A stretch of DNA of 45,390 nucleotides, taken from Gammaproteobacteria bacterium (GTDB taxonomy: Bacteria; Pseudomonadota; Gammaproteobacteria; Steroidobacterales; GCA-2729495). Within the stretch, counting starts at the first letter, position 1. Every line of letters begins with the position of its first letter. The translations under genes and the position numbers were made by a program. Below the pieces are notes generated by a model that was not told where the DNA came from, searched no databases, and was given only the letters and a program-made list of their open reading frames with translations. Location of the stretch: contig VGVH01000020.1 in the NCBI GenBank assembly GCA_016874095.1, positions 1-45,390 on the forward strand. The letters run 5' to 3'. Shown here one piece after another: positions 16,573 through 27,129 of this stretch.

Positions 16573-17205
16573 ATGAAGGCCATCCCCAGACGGAGACTCC
16601 AGGCCATGCGAGGCAAGACACAGCGCGGCTTCACGCTCGGCGAGCTGATGGCGAGCCTGACGGTCGCCGACGTCACGCTCGCGCTGGCGGTGCCCAGTTT
16701 CGAGCAGATCACGCGAAACAACCGCCAGGTCACGTCGGCGAACTAGCTGATCGCGGCCATGCACCTCGCGCGCAGCGAGGCCATCACCCGCAACATGCAG
16801 GTGGTGCTCTGCTCCAGCAACGACGGCTCGACCTGCTCCGGCGACTGCGGCGACGGCTGGGTTCTTTTTCCCGATCGCGATCGGGATCGCTCCCGCGATG
16901 CCCCCGCTGAAGTGGTGCTGGGCAATGGCCGGGCGGCAACGGACCTGGACATTGCCAGCGGCGAGTTCGCCGACTTCATCGTATTCCGACCGAACGGCCG
17001 CGCCATGGCCGCTGAGATCGACGACAACGCCGAAGACCTCACCTACGTGATCACGCAGGTCGGCGGCGGCGACACCAGCTGCATCTTCAACGCCGTACCG
17101 CAGAACGTGCAGGCGGACCGCGACACCGATTGCGGCACCATGGGCATTACCAGCACCGGCGACCGCACCCACTCGGGCGACGGCGCCACGGGCGGCTGCT
17201 GGTAG
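16573..17205 (+). pseudogene. FimT/GspH-type type IV pseudopilin gene interrupted by an in-frame amber codon
   Basis: From ATG 16573 (or 16606) the frame gives a basic leader, the prepilin cleavage motif G/FTLGE with Glu at +5, and the hydrophobic helix. It reads on to RNNRQVTSAN and stops at TAG 16744-16746. The same frame continues after the stop with LIAAMHLARSEAITRNMQVV and a cysteine-containing C-terminal domain to 17205. In this family the stop position is normally Glu (ANELIA-type), so a single GAG to TAG change explains it. Everything else, about 210 codons, is preserved, suggesting recent inactivation or amber readthrough. No other pilus genes are nearby. Confidence 0.8.
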
Positions 17206-17277: not shown

Positions 17278-17916
17278 ATGCTCGACCTGCCCGGACAACC
17301 AGTACTCGACAAGCAGTCCCTGATCGGCGGCTGCCTGCGCCTGCCGCTCGCGGTCGATGCTGCGCGGCTCGCAGCGGAGATCGACGCGCTCGATCCGGAT
17401 GTCTGGGGCAGCGGCGGCCGCGTCGGCGTGCAACGGCCGGCGGAGTCGCTGTTCCTGCGCGGCTACGCACCGGCCGAGGGCGAGAAGCCGATCGAGGATC
17501 GCCCGCCGCTCGCCGCCCTGCCCTACACGCGCGAGGTGCTCGCGCTGCCCGGCGCAGCACCGCAACGCTGCCTGCTCGCGCGCCTGCCTGCGCAGCGCAT
17601 CGTCGCCCTGCACATCGACGAACTGGCGCCCTATTTCCACCAGACCATCCGCATCCATGTGCCGGTCCGCACGCACGAGAACGCGTGGATGGTGTCGGCC
17701 GGCCGCTGCTACCGGATGCAGGCGGGCGAAGTCTGGGCGCTCAACAACTGCGCCGAGCACGGGGTCTGGAACGCCGACGCGAGCCGCTCACGCACGCACC
17801 TCATCTGCGACTTCCTGCCGAGTCCCCGCCTGCTCGAACTCCTGGCGCGCGGTGAGCGCGACCTGGGCCGCTACGCTCCCGAGATCGAGCGGCAGGTGCG
17901 GCCGCAACGCGCCTGA
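17278..17916 (+). CDS. Aspartyl/asparaginyl beta-hydroxylase family 2OG-Fe(II) oxygenase
   Basis: The 212-residue cytoplasmic enzyme has the AspH-type double-stranded beta-helix. The probable iron ligands are His112 and Asp114 in LHIDELAPYFHQTIRIHVPV, and His161 in WALNNCAEHGVWN. Arg172 in RSRTHLICDF would bind 2-oxoglutarate. The family hydroxylates the beta-carbon of Asp or Asn in peptides and proteins, although some members act on small molecules or lipids. It is followed without a gap by a sulfotransferase gene (TGA 17914-17916, ATG 17917). This mirrors the domain order of the fused protein at 18613-20394. No signal peptide is present. Confidence 0.86.
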   Translation: MLDLPGQPVLDKQSLIGGCLRLPLAVDAARLAAEIDALDPDVWGSGGRVGVQRPAESLFLRGYAPAEGEKPIEDRPPLAALPYTREVLALPGAAPQRCLLARLPAQRIVALHIDELAPYFHQTIRIHVPVRTHENAWMVSAGRCYRMQAGEVWALNNCAEHGVWNADASRSRTHLICDFLPSPRLLELLARGERDLGRYAPEIERQVRPQRA

Positions 17917-18612
17917 ATGATCGCCACCGACCGCTTCGTCTTCCTGCACCTGCACAAGTCCGGCGGCAGCTACGTCATCGACTGCCTGCAGCGCTTCCTC
18001 ACCGGCGTGCGGGAGATCGGCTACCACCTGCCGGCCAGCCTGATCCCGCCGGCACTGGCCGGGAAACCCGTGCTGGGCCTCGTGCGCAACCCCTGGAGCT
18101 ATTACGTCTCCTGGTACAGCTTCCAGCGCCAGCGGCCGCAGCCGAACCAGCTCTTCCAGGTGCTGAGCGACGGCGGCACGCTCGACTTCCGCGCGACGGT
18201 GAACAACATGCTGGATCTTGCCGAGGGCGGCGCGCTGCTCGACACGCTCGTCGCCCGCCTGCCCGCCAACTACGGCGGCCGCGGCCTGAACCTGCCGGGC
18301 CCGGTGCTCGCCACCATCCGCGGCAGCGGGCGCGGCTTCTACGGCTTCCTGTACGAGCATATGTACGGCGCCCTGCAGGCCAACTTGCATATCGACCGCA
18401 TGGAAGCGCTGCCCGGTTCGCTGCTCGATCTGTTCGCCGCCGTCGGCCAGCCGGTCGACGAGCCCCTGCGCGCCCACCTCGCGAGCGCGCCGCCGCGCAA
18501 TCCCTCCCAGCACGGGCAGTACACGAGCTACTACGACGAGGCGCTGCGCGAGCGCGTCGCGCGGATGGATGCCGCCGTGATCGCTCGACACGGCTACCGC
18601 TACGGCGACTGA
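17917..18612 (+). CDS. Sulfotransferase family protein
   Basis: The 231-residue cytoplasmic protein should transfer sulfate from PAPS to a hydroxyl group. The 5'-phosphosulfate-binding loop is LHLHKSGGSYV (10-20). The 3'-phosphate-binding segment is LVRNPWSYYVSWY (55-67), with the expected Arg and Ser. An acidic/His catalytic residue cannot be fixed by eye. The length suits the small 'sulfotransferase family 2' group. It directly abuts the AspH-type hydroxylase gene upstream, so the two are surely one transcript. Its TGA meets the stop of the fused hydroxylase-sulfotransferase gene tail to tail inside TGATCA (18610-18615). Confidence 0.85.
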   Translation: MIATDRFVFLHLHKSGGSYVIDCLQRFLTGVREIGYHLPASLIPPALAGKPVLGLVRNPWSYYVSWYSFQRQRPQPNQLFQVLSDGGTLDFRATVNNMLDLAEGGALLDTLVARLPANYGGRGLNLPGPVLATIRGSGRGFYGFLYEHMYGALQANLHIDRMEALPGSLLDLFAAVGQPVDEPLRAHLASAPPRNPSQHGQYTSYYDEALRERVARMDAAVIARHGYRYGD

Positions 18613-20394
18613 TCAGGCGAGCGCCCGGAGGCGCCGGCGCGTCGGCTCCAGCGCCGGCAGCAGCGGTGCGAGCGCGGCCTCGTGGCGGCGCCACTTGTCC
18701 GGCGCAGGGGGCGACTGCGTGTAGCGCGACAGCGGCAAGGGCAGCGCGAGTCGCGCGGCCAGGGCAGCATCGTCAGGCAGGCCAAGGAACGCCACGAGGC
18801 GCGCGACGGTCGCCGCCGGGTCGCGCACGAGATCGTGATAGGCGACGGCGGTCCAGTCCGAAGCCGGCAACTCCGCGAGATCGTCGCAGACGATGCGGTT
18901 GGTGCTGTCCCATTGCCAGGCGGCGATCGCTTCGGGTGACTGGCCGCGCTGCAACTGCCACTGCGGCGGCAGGAGCAGCGACCAGGGCCCGTCCCAGCCC
19001 GGCAGTTCCGGGTAGGTGACCCAGCCGCCATCGCGCCAGGCCTCAATGATGCTCGCGATGTTTTCCGCAGGTTCGCGCCAGAGGAACAGGAAGCGGGCGC
19101 GCGGAAAGACGCGACGGAAGAACGGGATGCGCAGCGCGTTCTTCGGCGTCTTCTCGAGCACGAGCAGCGGCTGGCGGCTGCCGAGCGGCTGGCCCAGCGC
19201 ATCGACCAGGCGCTCCGCGAGGCGCGTGCGGATCGCGGCGGCGATCTGCGGCGTGACCGCGGCCGCGCTCAGGCGGTTGGAGTCGATCCCCGGCGCACCG
19301 GGTCGCAACTCCGGCAGGCTCTCGACCAGCCAGTGGGCTTCACCGCCGGGCGTGGCCACGCCGCCGTGGGCTGCGAGCGTCTCGAAGAGCAGCGTGCTGC
19401 CCGAGCGCGGTGCCGCGACGATGAAGACCGGCGAGTCGAGCGGATCGCGTGTTGCCGGCTGCGACACCAGATGGCGCAGCACCCGCCCCTCCAGGACGCG
19501 GTGAGCCTCGACCCGGTTGGTGCGCATCACGAGCCCCGCAGCCAGCTCGCGCGAGCGGCTGCGCAGGGCGTCGATGATCCGCTCGTAGGCTGCGCCTGCC
19601 GATGCAGCCACGCCATGCAGGGCAACGAGCTGGCGCCAGTCCTGACAGAACTCCTCCAGCAGCTGGCGGTAGCGCGCGATGGCCTGTTCACCGCCTGCGC
19701 CTTCGTCGACAGCGATCAGTTCACGCGCGAGATCGCCGAGCAGCCACTCCGCCTCGGCCGGCGCCATGACCGGCGGCGGCACGTTGTCTTCGGTCAGCGG
19801 ACGCGCCTCGCGCGCGGGATCCCAGCGGTGCTCGCGCCAGGCGGAAGCCGGCAGGCCGGACTGCGCGACGAAACGCCAGAACGCCGAGCTGCCGGAAGTA
19901 TCCGCGACCAGGTGGATGCGCTCTTCCGCCCCGCCATTCTCGACATGGTGCGGGCGCCAGTTGTCGAAGACCCAGGCTTCGCCCGCCGCCATGTGCACTG
20001 TCTCGGCGCCGCAATGGAATTTTACCGCCGGGTTAGTCACGACCGGGATGTGGATGCGGGCCCGCGTGAACCAGTGGTAATTGATGTCGGCATGCAGGGG
20101 CACGGTCGCGCCCGCCGCGAGCCGCATCAGCCGCGAGCGGCTCCAGACCACGCCGAAGCTTTCCAGCACCTGGCGGATATAGGGCGAGGCCACCAGGTGC
20201 GGCGTGGCACTCATGCGCCCGGTGACGCCGTCGTTCTCGCCACCATCGACGCTGATCAGCCGCAGCGAGCTGTTGCCGGCGATCCCGTTCGGGTGCGCGG
20301 CCCAGGCGTCGGCCGGCAACGCGCCGACCTCGGCGCGCAGGCGCCCGACGTCGAAGCGCACGGGCAGCTGGTAGAACGGGCGCGGCAGTCGCAT
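18613..20394 (-). CDS. Fusion protein: Asp/Asn beta-hydroxylase domain + sulfotransferase domain
   Basis: The protein has 593 residues. Residues ~1-180 form an AspH-like oxygenase with iron ligands His101 and Asp103 (VPLHADINYHWFTRARIHIP) and His149 or His150 in WRPHHVENGG. R159 or the following IHLVAD strand would complete the 2OG site. A helical linker (~215-310) follows. Residues ~320-593 form a sulfotransferase, with PAPS loop VAAPRSGSTLLFETL (326-340) and 3'-phosphate segment FLFLWREPAENIASIIEAW. The C-terminal DKWRRHEAALAPLLPAL is typical of the family. One chain could therefore hydroxylate a residue and sulfate it. Its start is 3 nt after the TPR-hydroxylase stop, so the two are cotranscribed. 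No frameshift or internal stop is seen at the junction. Confidence 0.87.
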   Translation of the reverse strand: MRLPRPFYQLPVRFDVGRLRAEVGALPADAWAAHPNGIAGNSSLRLISVDGGENDGVTGRMSATPHLVASPYIRQVLESFGVVWSRSRLMRLAAGATVPLHADINYHWFTRARIHIPVVTNPAVKFHCGAETVHMAAGEAWVFDNWRPHHVENGGAEERIHLVADTSGSSAFWRFVAQSGLPASAWREHRWDPAREARPLTEDNVPPPVMAPAEAEWLLGDLARELIAVDEGAGGEQAIARYRQLLEEFCQDWRQLVALHGVAASAGAAYERIIDALRSRSRELAAGLVMRTNRVEAHRVLEGRVLRHLVSQPATRDPLDSPVFIVAAPRSGSTLLFETLAAHGGVATPGGEAHWLVESLPELRPGAPGIDSNRLSAAAVTPQIAAAIRTRLAERLVDALGQPLGSRQPLLVLEKTPKNALRIPFFRRVFPRARFLFLWREPAENIASIIEAWRDGGWVTYPELPGWDGPWSLLLPPQWQLQRGQSPEAIAAWQWDSTNRIVCDDLAELPASDWTAVAYHDLVRDPAATVARLVAFLGLPDDAALAARLALPLPLSRYTQSPPAPDKWRRHEAALAPLLPALEPTRRRLRALA

Positions 20395-20397
20395 GGC

Positions 20398-21675
20398 TCA
20401 GGCCTGCTCCATCTCGACGCGGAAATCGCCGATCGCGACGATCAGCTCGGCGACGGCGAGGCGCTCCGCCTCCGTGAGATACGGGTTCCACAAGTCGAAA
20501 ATGAGGACGACGCGCACGCGCTCGCTGCGGTTCCAGGCCTCGTGCTCGTAGGTGTCGTCGAACACGACGACGCGGCCTTCCTGCCAGACGTGCTCCTCGC
20601 CACCGACCCGCAGCGCACAGTCGGCCGGCACCACCAGCGGCAGGTGCCCGACCACCCGGGTATTAGTGACGCCCCGGTGCGGCAGCAGATGGGTGCCGGG
20701 CGTGAACACCGAGAACAGCACCTCCGGCCCGTGACGGGCCACCCGCGACAGTGGCAGCGCATCCAGCGCCGCCGCGCTGACCGGACTCGCGGCGCAGTTG
20801 TCGGCCCGCCGCTCGCCATGACGATACAGATAGTGGCCGGTCCAGGTCGGCGCGCCACGATAACCGCGCAGGTTCTCGGTCTCGAGCTCGTCGGAGCCGA
20901 ACACCCGCTCGCCAGAACCGCTGGTCCCCAGCAGCACCGCCAGTTCGCGGCGGATGGCGTCCGTTTGCGCCTCGAGCGCCTCCATCCAGGGGAAAAGTTC
21001 GCGCCCGAAATACGGCACCGCCGGCACGTCCGGCATGTAGAGGAAGCTCGGGCGCTGGCGCGGATCCGGGTATTCGATGGCCTCGTCCTGCAGGTACATC
21101 CGTAGCATGCGCGCGACCCGCCGCAGCTCGTCGGCGCCAAAGCGTTTCGCCAGCGGCTCGAGCAGCCTTGCGTACAGGGCGCGACTGCCCTCGCGCACGA
21201 CCTGCGCTGCGCGCGCGACCAGCGGGCGCAACGCCGGCGGCGTGGTCGCCAGGTCGAGCCACTTGCCGGCACGCTGCGTGTCCTGCAGCACGCGCGCGTA
21301 CTGCACCAGCGCCGCGTGATGCTCGCCCTGCGATTCCAGCAGCGCGCCGAGATGCAGCCGCGCCGCGGGCAGGTCGCTCCGCAGGCGTATCGCCCGCCGG
21401 TACGACTCCTGCGCCGTCCCGGCATCGCCGAGCTGCTCGGCGGCGCGGCCCAGATGGTGGTGACTTTGGCCGTGGTCCGGATGCGCATGCACGGCCCGCT
21501 CCAGCAGTTCCCGCGCGTGGTGCGGTTGGCCCATGCGCATGGCAGCCAATGCCACGATGTTCAGGGCCTGGACGTCGAACGGGTCCTCGGTCAGCACGCG
21601 GCGATAGGCCTGCTCGGCCTCCTCGATGCGCCCGGAGCGCAGCAGCCACTGCGCTTCCTCCGATGCCTTCACCAC
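20398..21675 (-). CDS. TPR-repeat aspartyl/asparaginyl beta-hydroxylase
   Basis: The protein has 425 residues. TPR repeats occupy ~1-135 (for example EEAEQAYRRVLTEDPFDVQAL and LGDAGTAQESYRRAIRLRSD). A helical connector follows, then an AspH oxygenase domain from ~205. The iron site reads LLPHRGVTNTRVVGHLPLVV (His333, with Gly at the usual Asp position) and VFDDTYEHEAWN (His378). This two-histidine arrangement and the TPR-oxygenase order parallel mammalian AspH, which modifies EGF-like domains. Arg388 in RVRVVLIFDLWNP should bind 2OG. The start codon is GTG at 21675. It leads a two-gene operon with the hydroxylase-sulfotransferase fusion and is divergent from the 2OG oxygenase at 21717. Confidence 0.87.
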   Translation of the reverse strand: MVKASEEAQWLLRSGRIEEAEQAYRRVLTEDPFDVQALNIVALAAMRMGQPHHARELLERAVHAHPDHGQSHHHLGRAAEQLGDAGTAQESYRRAIRLRSDLPAARLHLGALLESQGEHHAALVQYARVLQDTQRAGKWLDLATTPPALRPLVARAAQVVREGSRALYARLLEPLAKRFGADELRRVARMLRMYLQDEAIEYPDPRQRPSFLYMPDVPAVPYFGRELFPWMEALEAQTDAIRRELAVLLGTSGSGERVFGSDELETENLRGYRGAPTWTGHYLYRHGERRADNCAASPVSAAALDALPLSRVARHGPEVLFSVFTPGTHLLPHRGVTNTRVVGHLPLVVPADCALRVGGEEHVWQEGRVVVFDDTYEHEAWNRSERVRVVLIFDLWNPYLTEAERLAVAELIVAIGDFRVEMEQA

Positions 21676-21716
21676 GGTCTGTTTCCACCCGATAATCAGC
21701 GGCTTACTATATCAGC

Positions 21717-22277
21717 GTGGATCTGCGGCACTACATCCGGACCTACGATGCCGATCTCGAGCCAGCGCTCTGCCAGCGGATGATCGAGTCGTTCCAGGGC
21801 CTCGGTCGTTTCCATCAGCCGAACGGCCGCGTCGCCCGCGCCGGCCTGGAGGACTCGGCCTGGACGGAGGTGAACGTCACGCGATTCTCGGATGCGGCGC
21901 TACAGGGCTACTTTCGCCAGCGCGTCGACCGGGCGCTTGCCCGCTACAACGCCGACACCGGCGTGGGCCCGGTCCCGATCCCGAATTCGCCGCGCATCGC
22001 GGACCTGATCCTGAAGCGCTACCGCGCCGGTGCCGATGAGCGCTTCCAGCCGCATTTCGATGCCGTGCTGGAACACGCCGACCGTTACCTGGTGTTCCTC
22101 TGGTACCTGAACGATGTGCAGGACGGCGGCGAGACCGAGTTCGTGCAACTCGACACGAAGGTGGGCGCGCGCACCGGGCGACTCCTCATGTTCCCGCCCT
22201 ACTGGATGTACCAGCACGCGGGTCTCGCGCCGCGCTCGGGCGACAAGTACATCCTCTCGACCTACCTGCTGTTCTGA
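21717..22277 (+). CDS. 2OG-Fe(II) oxygenase, prolyl-4-hydroxylase-like
   Basis: The protein has 186 residues with a GTG start. The iron triad is His113-x-Asp115 (FQPHFDAV) and His167 (MYQHAGLAP). Lys177 in GDKYILSTYLLF is the likely 2-oxoglutarate-binding residue, as in prolyl 4-hydroxylases. LVFLWYLNDVQDGGETEF is the typical central strand pair. Length suits a minimal catalytic domain without accessory parts. The substrate is unknown; a peptide or protein side chain is plausible given its neighbours. It is divergent from the TPR-hydroxylase, with 41 nt between the starts, and converges with the TPR-sulfotransferase with 1 nt between the stops. Confidence 0.85.
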   Translation: MDLRHYIRTYDADLEPALCQRMIESFQGLGRFHQPNGRVARAGLEDSAWTEVNVTRFSDAALQGYFRQRVDRALARYNADTGVGPVPIPNSPRIADLILKRYRAGADERFQPHFDAVLEHADRYLVFLWYLNDVQDGGETEFVQLDTKVGARTGRLLMFPPYWMYQHAGLAPRSGDKYILSTYLLF

Positions 22278-22278
22278 C

Positions 22279-24117
22279 TCAGGCGTCGTAGCCCCAACGC
22301 CCGAGCTGGGATCCCAGCGCGGGCAGCGCCTCGGCGAACGCCGCCTCGTAGCGGCGCCAGCGGCCCACTGAACGGCCGTGCACGGGCTCGATGACCTGGC
22401 TGTAGCTCGGCGTGCTGATGTAGCCGCGCTCGCGCGCATGCCGCGCCGGCTCGAGCAGGGCGTCGTGCCACGGCACCTCCAGGAAGTCCGCGATGGCCCG
22501 CGCACCGCCCTCGAAGGCCGCGACGAGGGCCTCGTAGCGCACTTCGAGCACCGCGGGCTCGAGGATGGCCGCCTGCTCGAACCAGAAGTCGAAGGCGCGC
22601 GCGTAGCTGCGGGCGAGCGTCGGCAAGTCGCGGCAGATCAGCGCGAATTCCGGCGCGCGGAAATGCTGCTGGTAGCAGCTCAGCACCACGTCGCAGGGAT
22701 GGCGCACGGCGAGCAGTATCCTCGCATTCGGAAAGAGTCGCTGGATGGCCGGCAGCCGCAGCAGGTTGAGCGGATTCTTGTCGATGAGGCGCTGGCCCGG
22801 CGCAAGCGTCACCTTGCGCCGGGTGAGTTCCCAGTATCGTTCCCGCACCAGCGCGAGCTGCTCGCGCGACAGCGCTGCGAGACCCGAGGGATAGCGGACA
22901 GCGAAGTCCCCGATACGATCGATCGCCTGCTGCAGGTACGGCTGCTCGTCCATGGTGACGAGGCCGGGGTGCGCATCGAGCATCTGCTCGAGCAGCGTCG
23001 TGCCGGAGCGCGGAAACGCCACGATGAAGATCGGGCTGTCGGCGGCGGCCGGCGCATCGGTCTCGTCCCAGGCGGCGACGTCGCGCGGATCGCAGCCGTG
23101 GCGCGTGATGGCGAGCGGCGGCTCGCGCTGCTCGGCCACGCCCGGGTTGGTGCGCCGGACGTGCAGCATCTGCGCGGCATGCGCCTCGCGCAGCGCGGCC
23201 AGCGCCTCGTCATACCGGCCGGCCGCATCCAGGGCCTTGGCGAGCGGGAACAGATGCAGATGGCGACGATGCGGCTCGCGACAACCCGCCGCGAGCCGCG
23301 CGAATGACGCCACTGCCTCCGGCAGGCGGCCGTTGCGCTGTGCGAGCTGGGCCTCCAGCAATTCCAGATCTTCGCCGAGCGCAGCAGCCTCCGGGATCGA
23401 CCTGAGTCGCGCCAGAGCCGCTTCGGCCCCGGCGACGTCATTGCTGCGCTCGTGGAACTGGGCGATGCGCAGCAATGCCTGGGCACCGGGTTGCGGATCG
23501 GCCTCGGCCCTGGCGAGGGCAGCCCGGGCAGCCGCCTGTTCGCCGAGCGTCAGGTACAGGAGCGCGATCGACGCGCAGTGACCGGCATCGAGGCCCTCCA
23601 GCAGTTCCCAGCCATGGAGCGCCCGCACCGCCTCCTCCACCCTCATGGAGTCGTGGCAGCACTGCGCGTATTCGATGCGGACCGGGGCGTCGCGGGGCGC
23701 CGCCGCACTGGCGTCAGCCAGCACCTGCCGCGCTGAATCGTAGTCGCCCCGATCGATATGCAGCAGGCCGACGTTGTAGAAAAAGCTGCCCGAGCGCTCG
23801 CCCAGTGCCGCGGCGCGGGCATAGTCCGCCAGCGCCTCGTCGTACTGCCCGAGCTGGCGGCGGAAGGTGCCGAGGTTGATCCACCAGGCCGCCACATCGG
23901 GCTGCAGCCGCACCAGTTCTTCGAACGCCGCCACCGCCTCGCGTGGCCGTCCCTGCGCCGACAGCGCCAGCCCCAGCGTGGCACGGGCATCCAGGCGATC
24001 CGGCGACCGTGCCAGCATCGCGCGGCTCAGCCGCTCCGCCCCGGCCGCATCCCCCCGCTGCAGCTGCAGCAGCGCCTGGCGCGCGTCTTCCTGGTTTTCA
24101 GACCGGCTGTCAGCCAT
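22279..24117 (-). CDS. TPR-repeat sulfotransferase
   Basis: The protein has 612 residues. TPR repeats fill roughly 1-330 (units such as AAWWINLGTFRRQLGQYDEA and SFFYNVGLLHIDRGDYDSA). The sulfotransferase domain starts at ~360, with PAPS loop VAFPRSGTTLLEQMLDAHPG (366-385) and a following acidic MDEQPYL. RLIDKNPLN and the 3'-phosphate segment ILLAVRHPCDVVLSCYQQHF come next. The end reads SVGRWRRYEAAFAEALPALG. TPR-linked members of this family are thought to bind protein or peptide substrates and include relatives of tyrosylprotein sulfotransferases. It lies downstream of the TonB-dependent receptor gene on the same strand, separated by an intrinsic terminator. Confidence 0.9.
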   Translation of the reverse strand: MADSRSENQEDARQALLQLQRGDAAGAERLSRAMLARSPDRLDARATLGLALSAQGRPREAVAAFEELVRLQPDVAAWWINLGTFRRQLGQYDEALADYARAAALGERSGSFFYNVGLLHIDRGDYDSARQVLADASAAAPRDAPVRIEYAQCCHDSMRVEEAVRALHGWELLEGLDAGHCASIALLYLTLGEQAAARAALARAEADPQPGAQALLRIAQFHERSNDVAGAEAALARLRSIPEAAALGEDLELLEAQLAQRNGRLPEAVASFARLAAGCREPHRRHLHLFPLAKALDAAGRYDEALAALREAHAAQMLHVRRTNPGVAEQREPPLAITRHGCDPRDVAAWDETDAPAAADSPIFIVAFPRSGTTLLEQMLDAHPGLVTMDEQPYLQQAIDRIGDFAVRYPSGLAALSREQLALVRERYWELTRRKVTLAPGQRLIDKNPLNLLRLPAIQRLFPNARILLAVRHPCDVVLSCYQQHFRAPEFALICRDLPTLARSYARAFDFWFEQAAILEPAVLEVRYEALVAAFEGGARAIADFLEVPWHDALLEPARHARERGYISTPSYSQVIEPVHGRSVGRWRRYEAAFAEALPALGSQLGRWGYDA

Positions 24118-24139
24118 TTCCGGATCAGTGCAGGGGCCG

Positions 24140-24176
24140 CAAAAGAAAAGGCCGCGCGACTTGCGTCGCGCGGCCC
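24140..24176 (-). terminator. Intrinsic terminator of the TonB-dependent receptor gene
   Basis: An 11-bp perfect stem (24150-24160 with 24165-24175) with a 4-nt loop is followed, on the minus strand, by TTTTCTTTT (24142-24149). It lies 26 nt after the receptor stop and 23 nt before the start of the TPR-sulfotransferase. Readthrough could still feed the downstream gene at a lower level. Confidence 0.85.
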
Positions 24177-24201
24177 TTACTTTATCGAAGCGATCCCGGG
24201 A

Positions 24202-27129
24202 TCAGAACTGCTTGACGACGGAACCGAAGAAGTAGCGACCGACGGTGTCGTAGGTCGAAACGTCCGTGTTCGCGTTCAGCACGTTGTTCTGGAAGAGGAT
24301 CGGCGGCTGGTTGTCACCCAGGTTGTTGACGCCGACCTGGATCTTGGTGTCCCAGGACTCGATCGTGTACCCGGCCGTCATGTCGATGTACGTCTGGGAC
24401 GCGATGTTGAGATCCGGCTGGATGCCCGGGGCGCCATCAGGGTCGGACACCTTCACGCCATCGTTGTAGCGCGTGATGACCTGTGCCTCGAAGTCGGCGT
24501 ACTCCCAGCCCACGAGGAACTGACCGCGCCATTCAGCGATGTTGCCGTACTGGCGATCGTAGTAGCCAGCCACCTCGGTCAACGCACCCGTTGCAGCAAC
24601 GCGGCTCTCGTACTTGTCGTTGTACGTCGCCTCGAGACCGAACCGCAGGGTGCCGATCGGCAGATCCTCGAGCCGGTAGGCCGCGCTGAAATCAATACCG
24701 CTCAGGTCGCGGGTGTTGAAGTTCACCGTCGGCAGGACGATCTGGAAGATCGTGCCATCGGAGAAGCGGTTGATCAGCCCGCAGAAGAACTCATTGCCCG
24801 TGGCCACGCACTGGTCGGCGACATAGGTGGGATCGGGTTGGGTGATGTCGTTATCCAGCGAGTAATCCCAGTAGTCGACAGCCAGCGACAGCCCGTCGAT
24901 GAAGCTCGGCTCCCACACCAGACCGATGGTGAAGGCTTCGCCTTCTTCCGGCTGCAGGTTGCCTCCGGCGAAGGCGCTACCCACGAGCAGGGCATCGACC
25001 TGCGAGTTCGGCTGGTCGAAAGTGCCGTCCGGGTCGACATTCTCGCAAGCAAGCTCGAAGAATGTGCTCGGGTCGTCCAGGTCAGCCTGCTCGAGACCGA
25101 CGCAGGGATCCGTGAAGGTCTCGGCGCTGGCCGACGGGGCCTGGAACTTGTCGATCAGGGTCGGGGCCCGGAAGATTTCCGAGAACGTGGCGCGCGCCAG
25201 CAGTTCATCGGTGATCTTCCAGTCGATCTTGAACGAGAAGTTCGTGGTGTCGAAGCTCTCGTCGTCCGAGTACCCGTAGTCGGAGTAACGGACACCGGCC
25301 GTGAGGTTCAGCGACTGGATTCCCGGCATGTCCTTCGCGATGGGGAACAGGGCTTCCAGGTAAGCCTCCTTCACGTCCACCGTACCGAACTGGTCGCCGC
25401 TGCAGGTCTCACCCTGGAGCAGGCAGTCCTTGAACTCCGGTGGCGAGGCCTGGGTCAGGAAGTCAGTGTCGAAGTCGTGGGTTGAATCGCGGTACTCCGC
25501 GCCGATGGCCACCGACACCTTGCCGGCCGGCAGCTCGAACACATCGCCCGTGACACCCGCATTCACCGACTTGGTGCTGTACTTGTAGCTCTGGTTGTAG
25601 GAGGCCGAGATCGTGTTCAGCGCCGCCAGCTGCGTGGGATCGGTGAGGTTGAAGATGTTCACCGGGATGCAGCCGGAGATGACCGTGCTCGGCCCACCCC
25701 CGCCACCGTCGACGCCGCAGACGGGGTTGCCCCCGTCGTCGATGTAGGACGGTCCCAGGGCGTTGATCAGCGCGTTCTTGAAGAGATAGCCGCTGGTGTT
25801 GATGTTCTGGTCGATGCGGGCATAGCCGGCATTGACGTCGAAGTCCCAGCCGGTGTCGAACAACGCGCCGCGAATACCGCCGGTGATCTGGCCCTGCCAG
25901 CTCTCGACTTCGTTGCGGCGATTGCCGAGCGCCACCATGCGGAACGTGGCGTTCGAGTTCAGCGGGTCGGTGACACCGCCGAGGTCGATGCCGAACGGGT
26001 TGTAAAGGCTGTCGGCCGAGATCACGACGTTGTCCGAACGGGAGTCGAACGGCAGCGGTGCGATCTGGAAGCCTGATTTGGTGCGGTTGTACAGGAACTC
26101 CGTGTAGGCCTCGACGTCGTCCGACAGGTTCCAGCTCGCGAGCGTGAAGACGCTGGCGCGCTCCTGCGGCGTCATGATGAGGTTGAACGGCTGGTAGTTG
26201 AACGAGTCGTTGACCGGACCCGAACCGACATAGCAGCGGAAGTCATCCAGGCTGTCGCCCGTGGTCCCGGCGATCCGGGTCACGCTGTTGCAGCCGTAAA
26301 GCGCGTTGAGACCGGCGGCGATGGCTGCAGCGGAATCGAGAAAGATGCGGCCGGTCGGCACGCGGCTCGAGCCGCCAGCGAACACCGAGCCGTAGAAATA
26401 CAGCGCGTTGCGCGAGAACTCGCGGTCGCCCGCGGAAATCGCGTCCTGCTGGTTGTAGTTCAGGCCCATCAACAGGCTGCCGCGCTCGTTGTCGGTGCCC
26501 CAGCTGAGCGAGACTTCCCTGCGGTCGCCGTCGCTTTCGCTGGAGGAACCGGCACCGATGCTGACGGTTGCGCCGTCCGCCTTCTTGCGGGTGATGAAGT
26601 TGACGACGCCACCGATAGCGTCGGATCCGTAGATCGCGCCGGCGCCCTGCTTCAGGACCTCGACGCGCTCGATCATGTTGACCGGGATGGAGTTGATGTC
26701 GACTGCGCTGGACCCGTTGCCGAGGGCGCCGTAGCGGCGGCCGTTCAGCAGCACCAGCGTGCGCTCGGCGCCGAGGCCGCGCAGTTCGACGTTGCTCGCG
26801 CCGTCGCCGCCGCCGTTGTTCACGGCTGGGTTGGTGGCTCCGCCGCCGATGGCCGGCAGCTTCTGGATCAGTTCACCGATAGTGGTCACGCCGGTCTCGG
26901 CGATCTGCTCCGCGTCGATGATCTGGATGGGTACCGCCGTCTCGGCGTCGACGCGGCGGATGCGGGAACCCGTCACCACGATCTCGTCGATATTGCTCGC
27001 CGTGGTCTGCTGCTCCTGCGCGACCGCGGCCTGCTGTCCGCCGGCGACGGCTGCGCCGGTGAACATGGCGTACTTCGCTGCCTTGTGGGCAACGGACGCC
27101 GTTGAATCCATATCCAGTTTCTTCGTCAT
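24202..27129 (-). CDS. TonB-dependent outer-membrane receptor
   Basis: The protein has 975 residues. The N-terminus (1-37) is an unusually long leader whose hydrophobic part is YAMFTGAAVAGG and which ends near AVA/Q. The TonB box DEIVVTG (48-54) and the plug domain follow, with LRGLGAERTLVLLNGRR and RVEVLKQGAGAIYGSDAIGGVVNFI. A 22-strand barrel completes it and ends in Phe (FFGSVVKQF), as expected for BAM-assembled proteins. The ligand cannot be read. The family includes transporters for siderophores, glycans, peptides and aromatic compounds. Adjacency to TPR-sulfotransferase and hydroxylase genes hints at a peptide link, but this is inference. A promoter and a terminator flank the gene. Confidence 0.94.
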   Translation of the reverse strand: MTKKLDMDSTASVAHKAAKYAMFTGAAVAGGQQAAVAQEQQTTASNIDEIVVTGSRIRRVDAETAVPIQIIDAEQIAETGVTTIGELIQKLPAIGGGATNPAVNNGGGDGASNVELRGLGAERTLVLLNGRRYGALGNGSSAVDINSIPVNMIERVEVLKQGAGAIYGSDAIGGVVNFITRKKADGATVSIGAGSSSESDGDRREVSLSWGTDNERGSLLMGLNYNQQDAISAGDREFSRNALYFYGSVFAGGSSRVPTGRIFLDSAAAIAAGLNALYGCNSVTRIAGTTGDSLDDFRCYVGSGPVNDSFNYQPFNLIMTPQERASVFTLASWNLSDDVEAYTEFLYNRTKSGFQIAPLPFDSRSDNVVISADSLYNPFGIDLGGVTDPLNSNATFRMVALGNRRNEVESWQGQITGGIRGALFDTGWDFDVNAGYARIDQNINTSGYLFKNALINALGPSYIDDGGNPVCGVDGGGGGPSTVISGCIPVNIFNLTDPTQLAALNTISASYNQSYKYSTKSVNAGVTGDVFELPAGKVSVAIGAEYRDSTHDFDTDFLTQASPPEFKDCLLQGETCSGDQFGTVDVKEAYLEALFPIAKDMPGIQSLNLTAGVRYSDYGYSDDESFDTTNFSFKIDWKITDELLARATFSEIFRAPTLIDKFQAPSASAETFTDPCVGLEQADLDDPSTFFELACENVDPDGTFDQPNSQVDALLVGSAFAGGNLQPEEGEAFTIGLVWEPSFIDGLSLAVDYWDYSLDNDITQPDPTYVADQCVATGNEFFCGLINRFSDGTIFQIVLPTVNFNTRDLSGIDFSAAYRLEDLPIGTLRFGLEATYNDKYESRVAATGALTEVAGYYDRQYGNIAEWRGQFLVGWEYADFEAQVITRYNDGVKVSDPDGAPGIQPDLNIASQTYIDMTAGYTIESWDTKIQVGVNNLGDNQPPILFQNNVLNANTDVSTYDTVGRYFFGSVVKQF

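Follow-up and report, generated by a model that had tools for sequence, protein, structure and literature searches.

A conserved seven-gene hydroxylase–sulfotransferase locus with a TonB-dependent receptor suggests decoration of a surface protein before export

The 45,390-nucleotide stretch analysed here (the window; GenBank assembly GCA_016874095.1, contig VGVH01000020.1, positions 1 to 45,390) lies on contig C20 of a 2.8-Mb gammaproteobacterial genome. At positions 17278-27129 it carries seven adjacent genes, encoding six oxygenase or sulfotransferase (ST) enzymes and a TonB-dependent receptor (TBDR). Domains were called with Pfam profiles against the curated cut-offs (2OG, 2-oxoglutarate; P4H, prolyl 4-hydroxylase; TPR, tetratricopeptide repeat; aa, amino acids):

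17278-17916, plus strand: AspHa, 212 aa, AspH-family 2OG oxygenase; Asp_Arg_Hydrox (PF05118), 42.4 bits
17917-18612, plus strand: STx, 231 aa, small sulfotransferase with an HKSGG motif; Sulfotransfer_1, 15.8 bits (cut-off 22)
18613-20394, minus strand: AspH-ST, 593 aa, fused protein; N-terminal Asp_Arg_Hydrox, 52.1 bits, and C-terminal Sulfotransfer_3, 89.3 bits
20398-21675, minus strand: TPR-AspH, 425 aa, TPR array and Asp_Arg_Hydrox, 140.4 bits (cut-off 22.6)
21717-22277, plus strand: P4H, 186 aa, P4H-like 2OG oxygenase; 2OG-FeII_Oxy_3, 39.0 bits
22279-24117, minus strand: TPR-ST, 612 aa, TPR array and Sulfotransfer_3, 121.6 bits
24202-27129, minus strand: TBDR, 975 aa; Plug, 88.4 bits, and barrel, 113.9 bits

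Six of the seven genes score above the curated cut-offs, the exception being STx. P4H, AspHa and STx are on the plus strand and AspH-ST, TPR-AspH, TPR-ST and the TBDR on the minus strand, so that P4H is sandwiched in the opposite orientation between TPR-ST and TPR-AspH, and neighbouring genes are separated by 0 to 84 bases. The locus totals three AspH-type domains, one P4H-like oxygenase, three sulfotransferase domains, two TPR arrays and one TBDR. An initial annotation, made from the sequence alone, had listed the same inventory; Pfam bears it out, as the fold described below does for its weak third sulfotransferase, STx. The TBDR is the likely partner and candidate substrate of the six enzymes.

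Searches of 296 genomes of the same order, in which a few first-look candidates were scored per genome, confirmed that the seven genes are a real unit (hereafter System I). All seven lie on one contig, with order and relative orientation kept, in six other genomes (G094, G091, G240, G210, G182 and G294), and three further copies are incomplete, being cut in G246 and G242 and split over two contigs in G097. Some match to AspH-ST (E ≤ 1e-10) is present in 59 of the 296 genomes, with near-full-length matches of at least 695 bits (55-100% identity) in 8, the window's own included; the fusion is matched as two pieces within one open frame in G246 and is cut by the contig end in G242. Because receptors are common, 133 genomes have a TBDR match at E ≤ 1e-60. 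The clade of the window's receptor is found at 784 bits or more in 10 genomes (44-100% identity), the next best match elsewhere scoring 410 bits (35%), and in G158 a contig end leaves a fragment of it (275 bits, 43%). The P4H profile likewise finds 11 genomes at about 317 bits or more, followed by a match of 137 bits. The genome sets of the TBDR clade and P4H are identical (11 of 296 genomes, from 8 genera and 2 families). AspH-ST was not found in G158, where the contig carrying the TBDR, TPR-ST, P4H and TPR-AspH ends after 4.8 kb. Since nine listed same-genus genomes have neither the fusion nor the receptor clade, the distribution of the unit is patchy, by transfer or loss. Kept gene order and joint presence rule out a chance assembly of abundant domains; the independent variation of the genes that the initial annotation had named as refuting was not seen in the genomes searched, and its proposal that they form one module stands. 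In G210 (L195:7056-18001) and G091 (L196:5796-15274) a second cluster adjoins System I; it encodes a different TBDR and a TPR-ST relative, besides TPR-AspH genes and a 2OG-FeII_Oxy_3 protein (tested with Pfam in L195).

Related loci in named genomes were collected with an AspH-ST alignment, and all counts out of 80 refer to the best-scoring 80 of 129 relatives, which are not independent of one another. AspHb and STb are fused in 49 of the 80 anchors, an arrangement that fits a coupling of hydroxylation to sulfation, and 51 of the 80 loci hold such a fusion. A TBDR match lies within 5.5 kb in 54 of the 80 loci; where both flanks are full (at least 5.5 kb each), 42 of 53 loci have one, as against about 15% expected by chance, an estimate from 27 first-look receptor candidates in the window's genome. 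A further sulfotransferase gene lies within the same distance in 41 of these 42 loci, and a further oxygenase gene of a modelled kind in 31. The partner receptors come from more than one receptor branch. System I is complete by family in 13 of the 80 loci, for example in the cultured strains Steroidobacter agaridevorans SA29-B (L153), Peristeroidobacter soli JW-3 (L115) and P. agariperforans KA5-B (L113), and Hydrocarboniphaga, Ideonella and Rubrivivax have variants of it. A further 25 loci, in Caulobacter, Asticcacaulis, Phenylobacterium, Novosphingobium, Sphingomonas, Sphingobium and some Brevundimonas, form System II, which comprises, mostly on the same strand, a TBDR of another branch, a Sulfotransfer_2 protein, a small AspH, TPR-ST and AspHb. 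The module is widespread. A phospholipase-C-type gene lies within 9 kb in 14 of the 25 System II loci; L177 also has a flavin adenine dinucleotide oxidoreductase and an HD-domain gene, perhaps for phosphorus scavenging.

The active-site residues of the enzymes are conserved, as judged in alignments of 8 to 10 rows each, a few of them contig-cut. H112, D114, H161 and R172 of AspHa (H-x-D ... H ... R), H333, G335, H378 and R388 of TPR-AspH (H-x-G ... H ... R, a site that lines up with human ASPH) and H113, D115, H167 and K177 of P4H (H-x-D ... H ... K) are each invariant in 9 aligned rows, as are the H-x-D ... H ... R residues of AspH-ST in its aligned homologues. The sulfotransferases carry PRSG- or HKSGG-type loops that are invariant (for TPR-ST, PRSGTT in 8 aligned rows), except in AspH-ST, where one row is contig-cut at the loop. 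We take these residues to have the catalytic, metal-binding, 2OG-arginine and PAPS-loop roles (PAPS, 3′-phosphoadenosine-5′-phosphosulfate).

Enzymes that modify protein residues are the closest solved relatives of three of the six: human ASPH for TPR-AspH (150 bits by profile, 106.8 by single sequence), a bacterial prolyl 4-hydroxylase for P4H (44.6 bits) and protein-tyrosine sulfotransferase 1 (TPST1) for TPR-ST, whose whole sulfotransferase domain is covered (92.1 bits). AspHa is closest to L-proline cis-4-hydroxylase (40.9 bits), and AspH-ST matches the CurM sulfotransferase (47.8 bits), L-proline cis-4-hydroxylase (40.1 bits) and TPST1 (36.0 bits). A protein substrate would suit TPR-AspH, TPR-ST and P4H, given their resemblance to human ASPH, TPST1/2 and bacterial prolyl 4-hydroxylase; judged by sequence similarity, it suits AspHa and the fused AspH domain less well, as these resemble L-proline cis-4-hydroxylase, and likewise the fused sulfotransferase, which resembles CurM. 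In a 44-row tree, TPR-AspH joins human ASPH (100/97), apart from LpxO and OlsC, a join that is possibly false given that the human row is long and long branches meet. By profile, TPR-AspH scores 99.1 bits against OlsC (cut-off 450) and 63.6 bits against LpxO (cut-off 500).

The STx family profile found no solved relative by sequence better than E 0.14. The predicted model of STx is confident (mean predicted local distance difference test score, pLDDT, 92.9), and in a Foldseek search of the PDB all 20 of 20 matches at E ≤ 0.001 belong to the PAPS sulfotransferase fold family, the best with E 1.8e-4 and a TM-score of 0.52. Given the confident model and the uniform matches, we take STx as a real sulfotransferase fold, at the level of a predicted structure, which rules out a false call.

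While most full-flank loci have a TBDR match, 11 of the 53 do not, and these consist of L145, L163 and nine orphans, loci whose fused gene has neither a TBDR nor a beta-helix match beside it. In six TBDR-less loci (L163, L154, L151, L145, L292 and L288) a beta-helix and/or Calx-beta protein, apparently secreted, is encoded within 2 kb. In L145 and L163 this neighbour is a large, apparently secreted right-handed beta-helix protein; the contig-cut loci L151 and L154 have beta-helix neighbours, with a NosD-type match in the former and at a distance of 1.9 kb in the latter; L292 is a beta-helix locus closely related to L145; and L288 pairs a neighbour bearing Calx-beta domains with an enzyme made up of Sulfotransfer_3 and DUF4915, without an AspH match. 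Secretion of the neighbours in L163, L145, L151 and L288 was read by eye from their N-termini. Using four of these proteins as seeds against 2,055 called genes (some contigs read twice), we obtained seven matches, all within the beta-helix/Calx-beta loci; they comprise the four seeds themselves and further matches in L154 and L292, L145 and L296 being one place. The other 2,048 called genes did not match the four seeds.

A wider hunt for enzyme relatives beside beta-helix proteins added few: in the phylum of G459, 4 of 297 genomes (two already known); in the class of G462, 5 of 274; and in the class of G461, 1 of 189, namely G461 itself. L151 is a 6-kb contig of an actinobacterial metagenome-assembled genome and may be mis-binned; the 189 genomes of that genome's class gave no other match. 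DUF4915 is a fusion partner of AspH-ST or ST in L163, L154, L288 and L290, the extension in L154 being known only by its similarity to L163, and it stands alone in L289, where its gene adjoins an FG-GAP protein; a literature search for DUF4915 names gave no paper.

The nine orphan loci come from Brevundimonas or other Caulobacterales or alphaproteobacterial records, and their neighbours are mostly ordinary genes (Pfam was run on one, L131). TPR-ST relatives in these nine genomes lie elsewhere in the genome, at 34-38% identity. A small lipoprotein-like gene of about 190-240 aa adjoins the orphan AspH-ST in most of L130-L137, L143 and L144; it is absent from L136 and L175, and the one tested had no Pfam match.

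No precursor peptide emerged near the enzymes, as the initial annotation had also observed. The 24 small open reading frames (ORFs) in the gaps between the genes include no conserved pair, and among 749 small ORFs from 18 System I loci no family occurs in more than 5 loci, those shown resembling, by eye, shadow frames of flanking genes. The small-ORF families found in up to 17 of the 25 System II loci also resemble shadow frames, by eye only. A local precursor peptide is therefore rejected for the gaps and the System I loci. Known RNAs scoring above the gathering threshold were absent from the window, L112, L117 and L120, and L177 has one small-RNA match more than 7 kb from the cluster.

The conserved six-enzyme set and the exported neighbours of its relatives suggest that a surface protein is decorated before export. 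We tentatively favour, at a little short of an even chance, a reading in which the cytosolic enzymes hydroxylate and sulfate side chains of an exported surface protein encoded alongside them, here the TBDR. By eye, the N-termini of the six enzymes show no signal peptide, and PAPS and 2OG are cytosolic, so the enzymes would act in the cytoplasm. The TPR arrays of two of them would hold the unfolded TBDR chain. Selected side chains (Asp/Asn, Pro or similar) would receive hydroxyl groups from the AspH-type and P4H-type oxygenases, and sulfate would then be added to those hydroxyls and/or to tyrosines by the sulfotransferases. The TBDR would be exported with new negative charges on its surface or plug, which may serve ligand binding, protection from phage or bacteriocins, or adhesion. 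In relatives, enzymes of the same kind would act on different surface proteins that are exported, for example the beta-helix/Calx-beta proteins of Acidobacteriota. What beta-helix proteins and TBDRs have in common is surface export, not ligand uptake, which favours the neighbouring exported protein as substrate over a product taken up or a lipid.

Several observations weigh against this decoration of a co-encoded protein, chief among them the orphan fused genes. In addition to the nine full-flank orphans, three AspH-ST loci (L043, L045 and L294) have no recognisable exported partner, neither TBDR nor beta-helix, and in 5 of the 6 orphan genomes mapped the TPR-ST relative has no adjoining TBDR match, whereas in the sixth it has one. 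Two of the three AspH-type domains (AspHa and that of AspH-ST) are nearest to L-proline cis-4-hydroxylase, whose substrate is free proline. Outer-membrane proteins leave the cytoplasm fast and unfolded, and the time for modifying them is short. The receptors of Systems I and II have no clear common system-specific motif: of 59 jointly conserved columns, 9 are rare in the outgroup, and these are scattered. Finally, what is shown are domains, fusion and linkage, from which we infer cytosolic action, hydroxylation before sulfation, and the TBDR as substrate.

Within the receptor clade, 37 of 183 invariant columns are clade-specific and include, in window numbering, Tyr244, Tyr246, Tyr448, Tyr756, Asp362, Asp366, Asp660, Asp766, Asn100, Asn494 and Pro564; such residues cannot separate acceptor sites from ligand specificity and serve as leads only, and the predicted TBDR model (mean pLDDT 66.6) is too weak for loop placement.

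The alternatives differ chiefly in what the enzymes act on. The product of the enzymes might be a secreted ligand, for instance a peptide carrying hydroxyl and sulfate groups, that works as a metallophore or signal as methanobactin does and is re-imported by the TBDR. The closeness of a receptor in most full-flank loci agrees with this, as does the pairing of a TonB-dependent transporter with a sulfotransferase in methanobactin operons of some families (PMC3621798). We nevertheless think it unlikely: no small ORF is conserved in the gaps or the System I loci, even if a precursor might be encoded elsewhere; exporter, peptidase and DUF692-like genes are absent from the seven, the genome's one PF05114 match being on another contig (C1); and the beta-helix neighbours of TBDR-less loci are not importers. 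Alternatively, the enzymes could modify exported or surface proteins encoded elsewhere, with the TBDR co-regulated and not a substrate. This would account for the orphan fused genes and for a locus of another family (L204) in which P4H and TPR-ST relatives cluster with a secreted-type FG-GAP/ASPIC-UnbV protein, yet System I is tied to a single receptor clade, found in the same 11 of the 296 genomes, which argues against it; we consider it decidedly unlikely.

Tailoring of a lipid or small molecule, by hydroxylation of an acyl chain or metabolite followed by sulfation, seems improbable. The OlsC and LpxO profiles do match TPR-AspH, and the best solved relative of AspH-ST is a polyketide sulfotransferase, CurM; the profile scores, however, are far below their curated cut-offs, the tree, with its long-branch caveat, places TPR-AspH with human ASPH, and the TPR arrays and the pairing with TBDRs and beta-helix proteins would be left unexplained. 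Among the substrates considered in the initial annotation, the receptor itself is now the better option, because some TBDR-less loci adjoin another apparently exported protein, and a precursor encoded elsewhere is less favoured though still conceivable. Its hydroxylate-then-sulfate chemistry is plausible in the more specific form of decoration of a co-encoded exported surface protein, to which we give somewhat less than even weight: the fusions and the three enzymes close to protein modifiers speak for it, and the similarity of TPR-ST to tyrosine-protein sulfotransferases, which need no prior hydroxylation, the two AspH domains close to L-proline cis-4-hydroxylase and the orphan loci speak against it.

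The locus resembles several known systems in part. Human ASPH has the same layout of TPR and PF05118 oxygenase, with the aligned H-x-G ... H ... R site. It acts in the endoplasmic reticulum on disulfide-rich domains like those of epidermal growth factor; unlike it, TPR-AspH is bacterial and presumably cytosolic, and shares its operon with sulfotransferases and a TBDR. We know of no TPR in TPST1 or TPST2, with whose domain TPR-ST aligns, and of no hydroxylase coupled to them. These are Golgi enzymes (PMC9372746). Within bacteria, a cluster of Xanthomonas includes RaxX and the sulfotransferase RaxST. The product of this cluster is a tyrosine-sulfated peptide (PMC6637879). The RaxX cluster encodes a 60-residue precursor; no precursor was found at the present locus, whose genes supply three sulfotransferases and four oxygenase domains alongside a TBDR. 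Methanobactin operons bring together a sulfotransferase (MbnS) and a TonB-dependent transporter (MbnT) in some families (PMC3621798); no MbnA-like, MbnB (PF05114) or MATE gene is among our seven, whose oxygenases are of other families. A literature search, with most subscription papers and all bioRxiv preprints outside its coverage and hence a weak negative, found no description of a hydroxylase-sulfotransferase-TBDR locus.

Tryptophan-halogenase/TBDR loci also share AspH-type and sulfotransferase genes with the window, and in L058 a TBDR too, and differ in having flavin halogenases in place of P4H and TPR-AspH. This third kind of locus, from the same bacterial order, combines a small AspH and a sulfotransferase with a TBDR and a pair of tryptophan halogenases (445 and 429 bits in L058). 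Tryptophan halogenases accompany AspH and sulfotransferase-like genes in L058, L060, L061 and L069, the halogenases having been tested with Pfam in L058 and L061 and called by an N-terminal motif in L060 and L069; a TBDR match lies within the fetched stretch of L058 and L060, and in L060 and L061 the AspH-TPR protein also bears an STx-like region, a further joining of the two chemistries. In the available part of its report, the natural substrate of halogenase BrvH is left open and TonB is not mentioned (PMC5945002).

Elsewhere in the window's genome (G000), a PF05118 search gave four matches, three of which are the domains of 17278-27129. The fourth (C1:50852-51274) is flanked on one side by a TBDR gene from a different clade (barrel 116.5, Plug 50.5 bits) and on the other by a gene for a TPR-sulfotransferase (Sulfotransfer_3, 173 bits), so each AspH-family match found in the genome adjoins a receptor and a sulfotransferase. 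These three genes lie side by side at L072:8356-13343 (contig C1, about 48.4-53.3 kb), possibly a second modification locus of the same genome. The same contig holds the PF05114 gene of the MbnB/TglH/ChrH family (L230; C1:222783-223559; 343.9 bits). Upstream of AspHa, a GspH/FimT-like pseudopilin (window 16573-17205, plus strand; 47.8 bits over 16759-17202) looks like a broken gene, because the frame opening with ATG at 16573 is interrupted by TAG at 16744-16746.

More broadly, it is possible, though short of probable, that in many Gram-negative bacteria dedicated cytosolic hydroxylase-sulfotransferase sets decorate one co-encoded outer-surface protein before export, be it a TBDR or, in Acidobacteriota, a beta-helix/Calx-beta protein, as the bacterial counterpart of eukaryotic secretory-pathway sulfation and AspH hydroxylation, carried out before translocation. 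If so, the bacterial proteins known to be hydroxylated and sulfated by enzymes would gain a new class, the outer-membrane receptors, and the fused hydroxylase-sulfotransferases might be used as tools. Mass spectrometry of cultured strains could directly address why modifying enzymes adjoin TBDRs, and a function would be assigned to a gene neighbourhood that recurs, unexplained, in Steroidobacter, Caulobacter, Sphingomonas and related genera.

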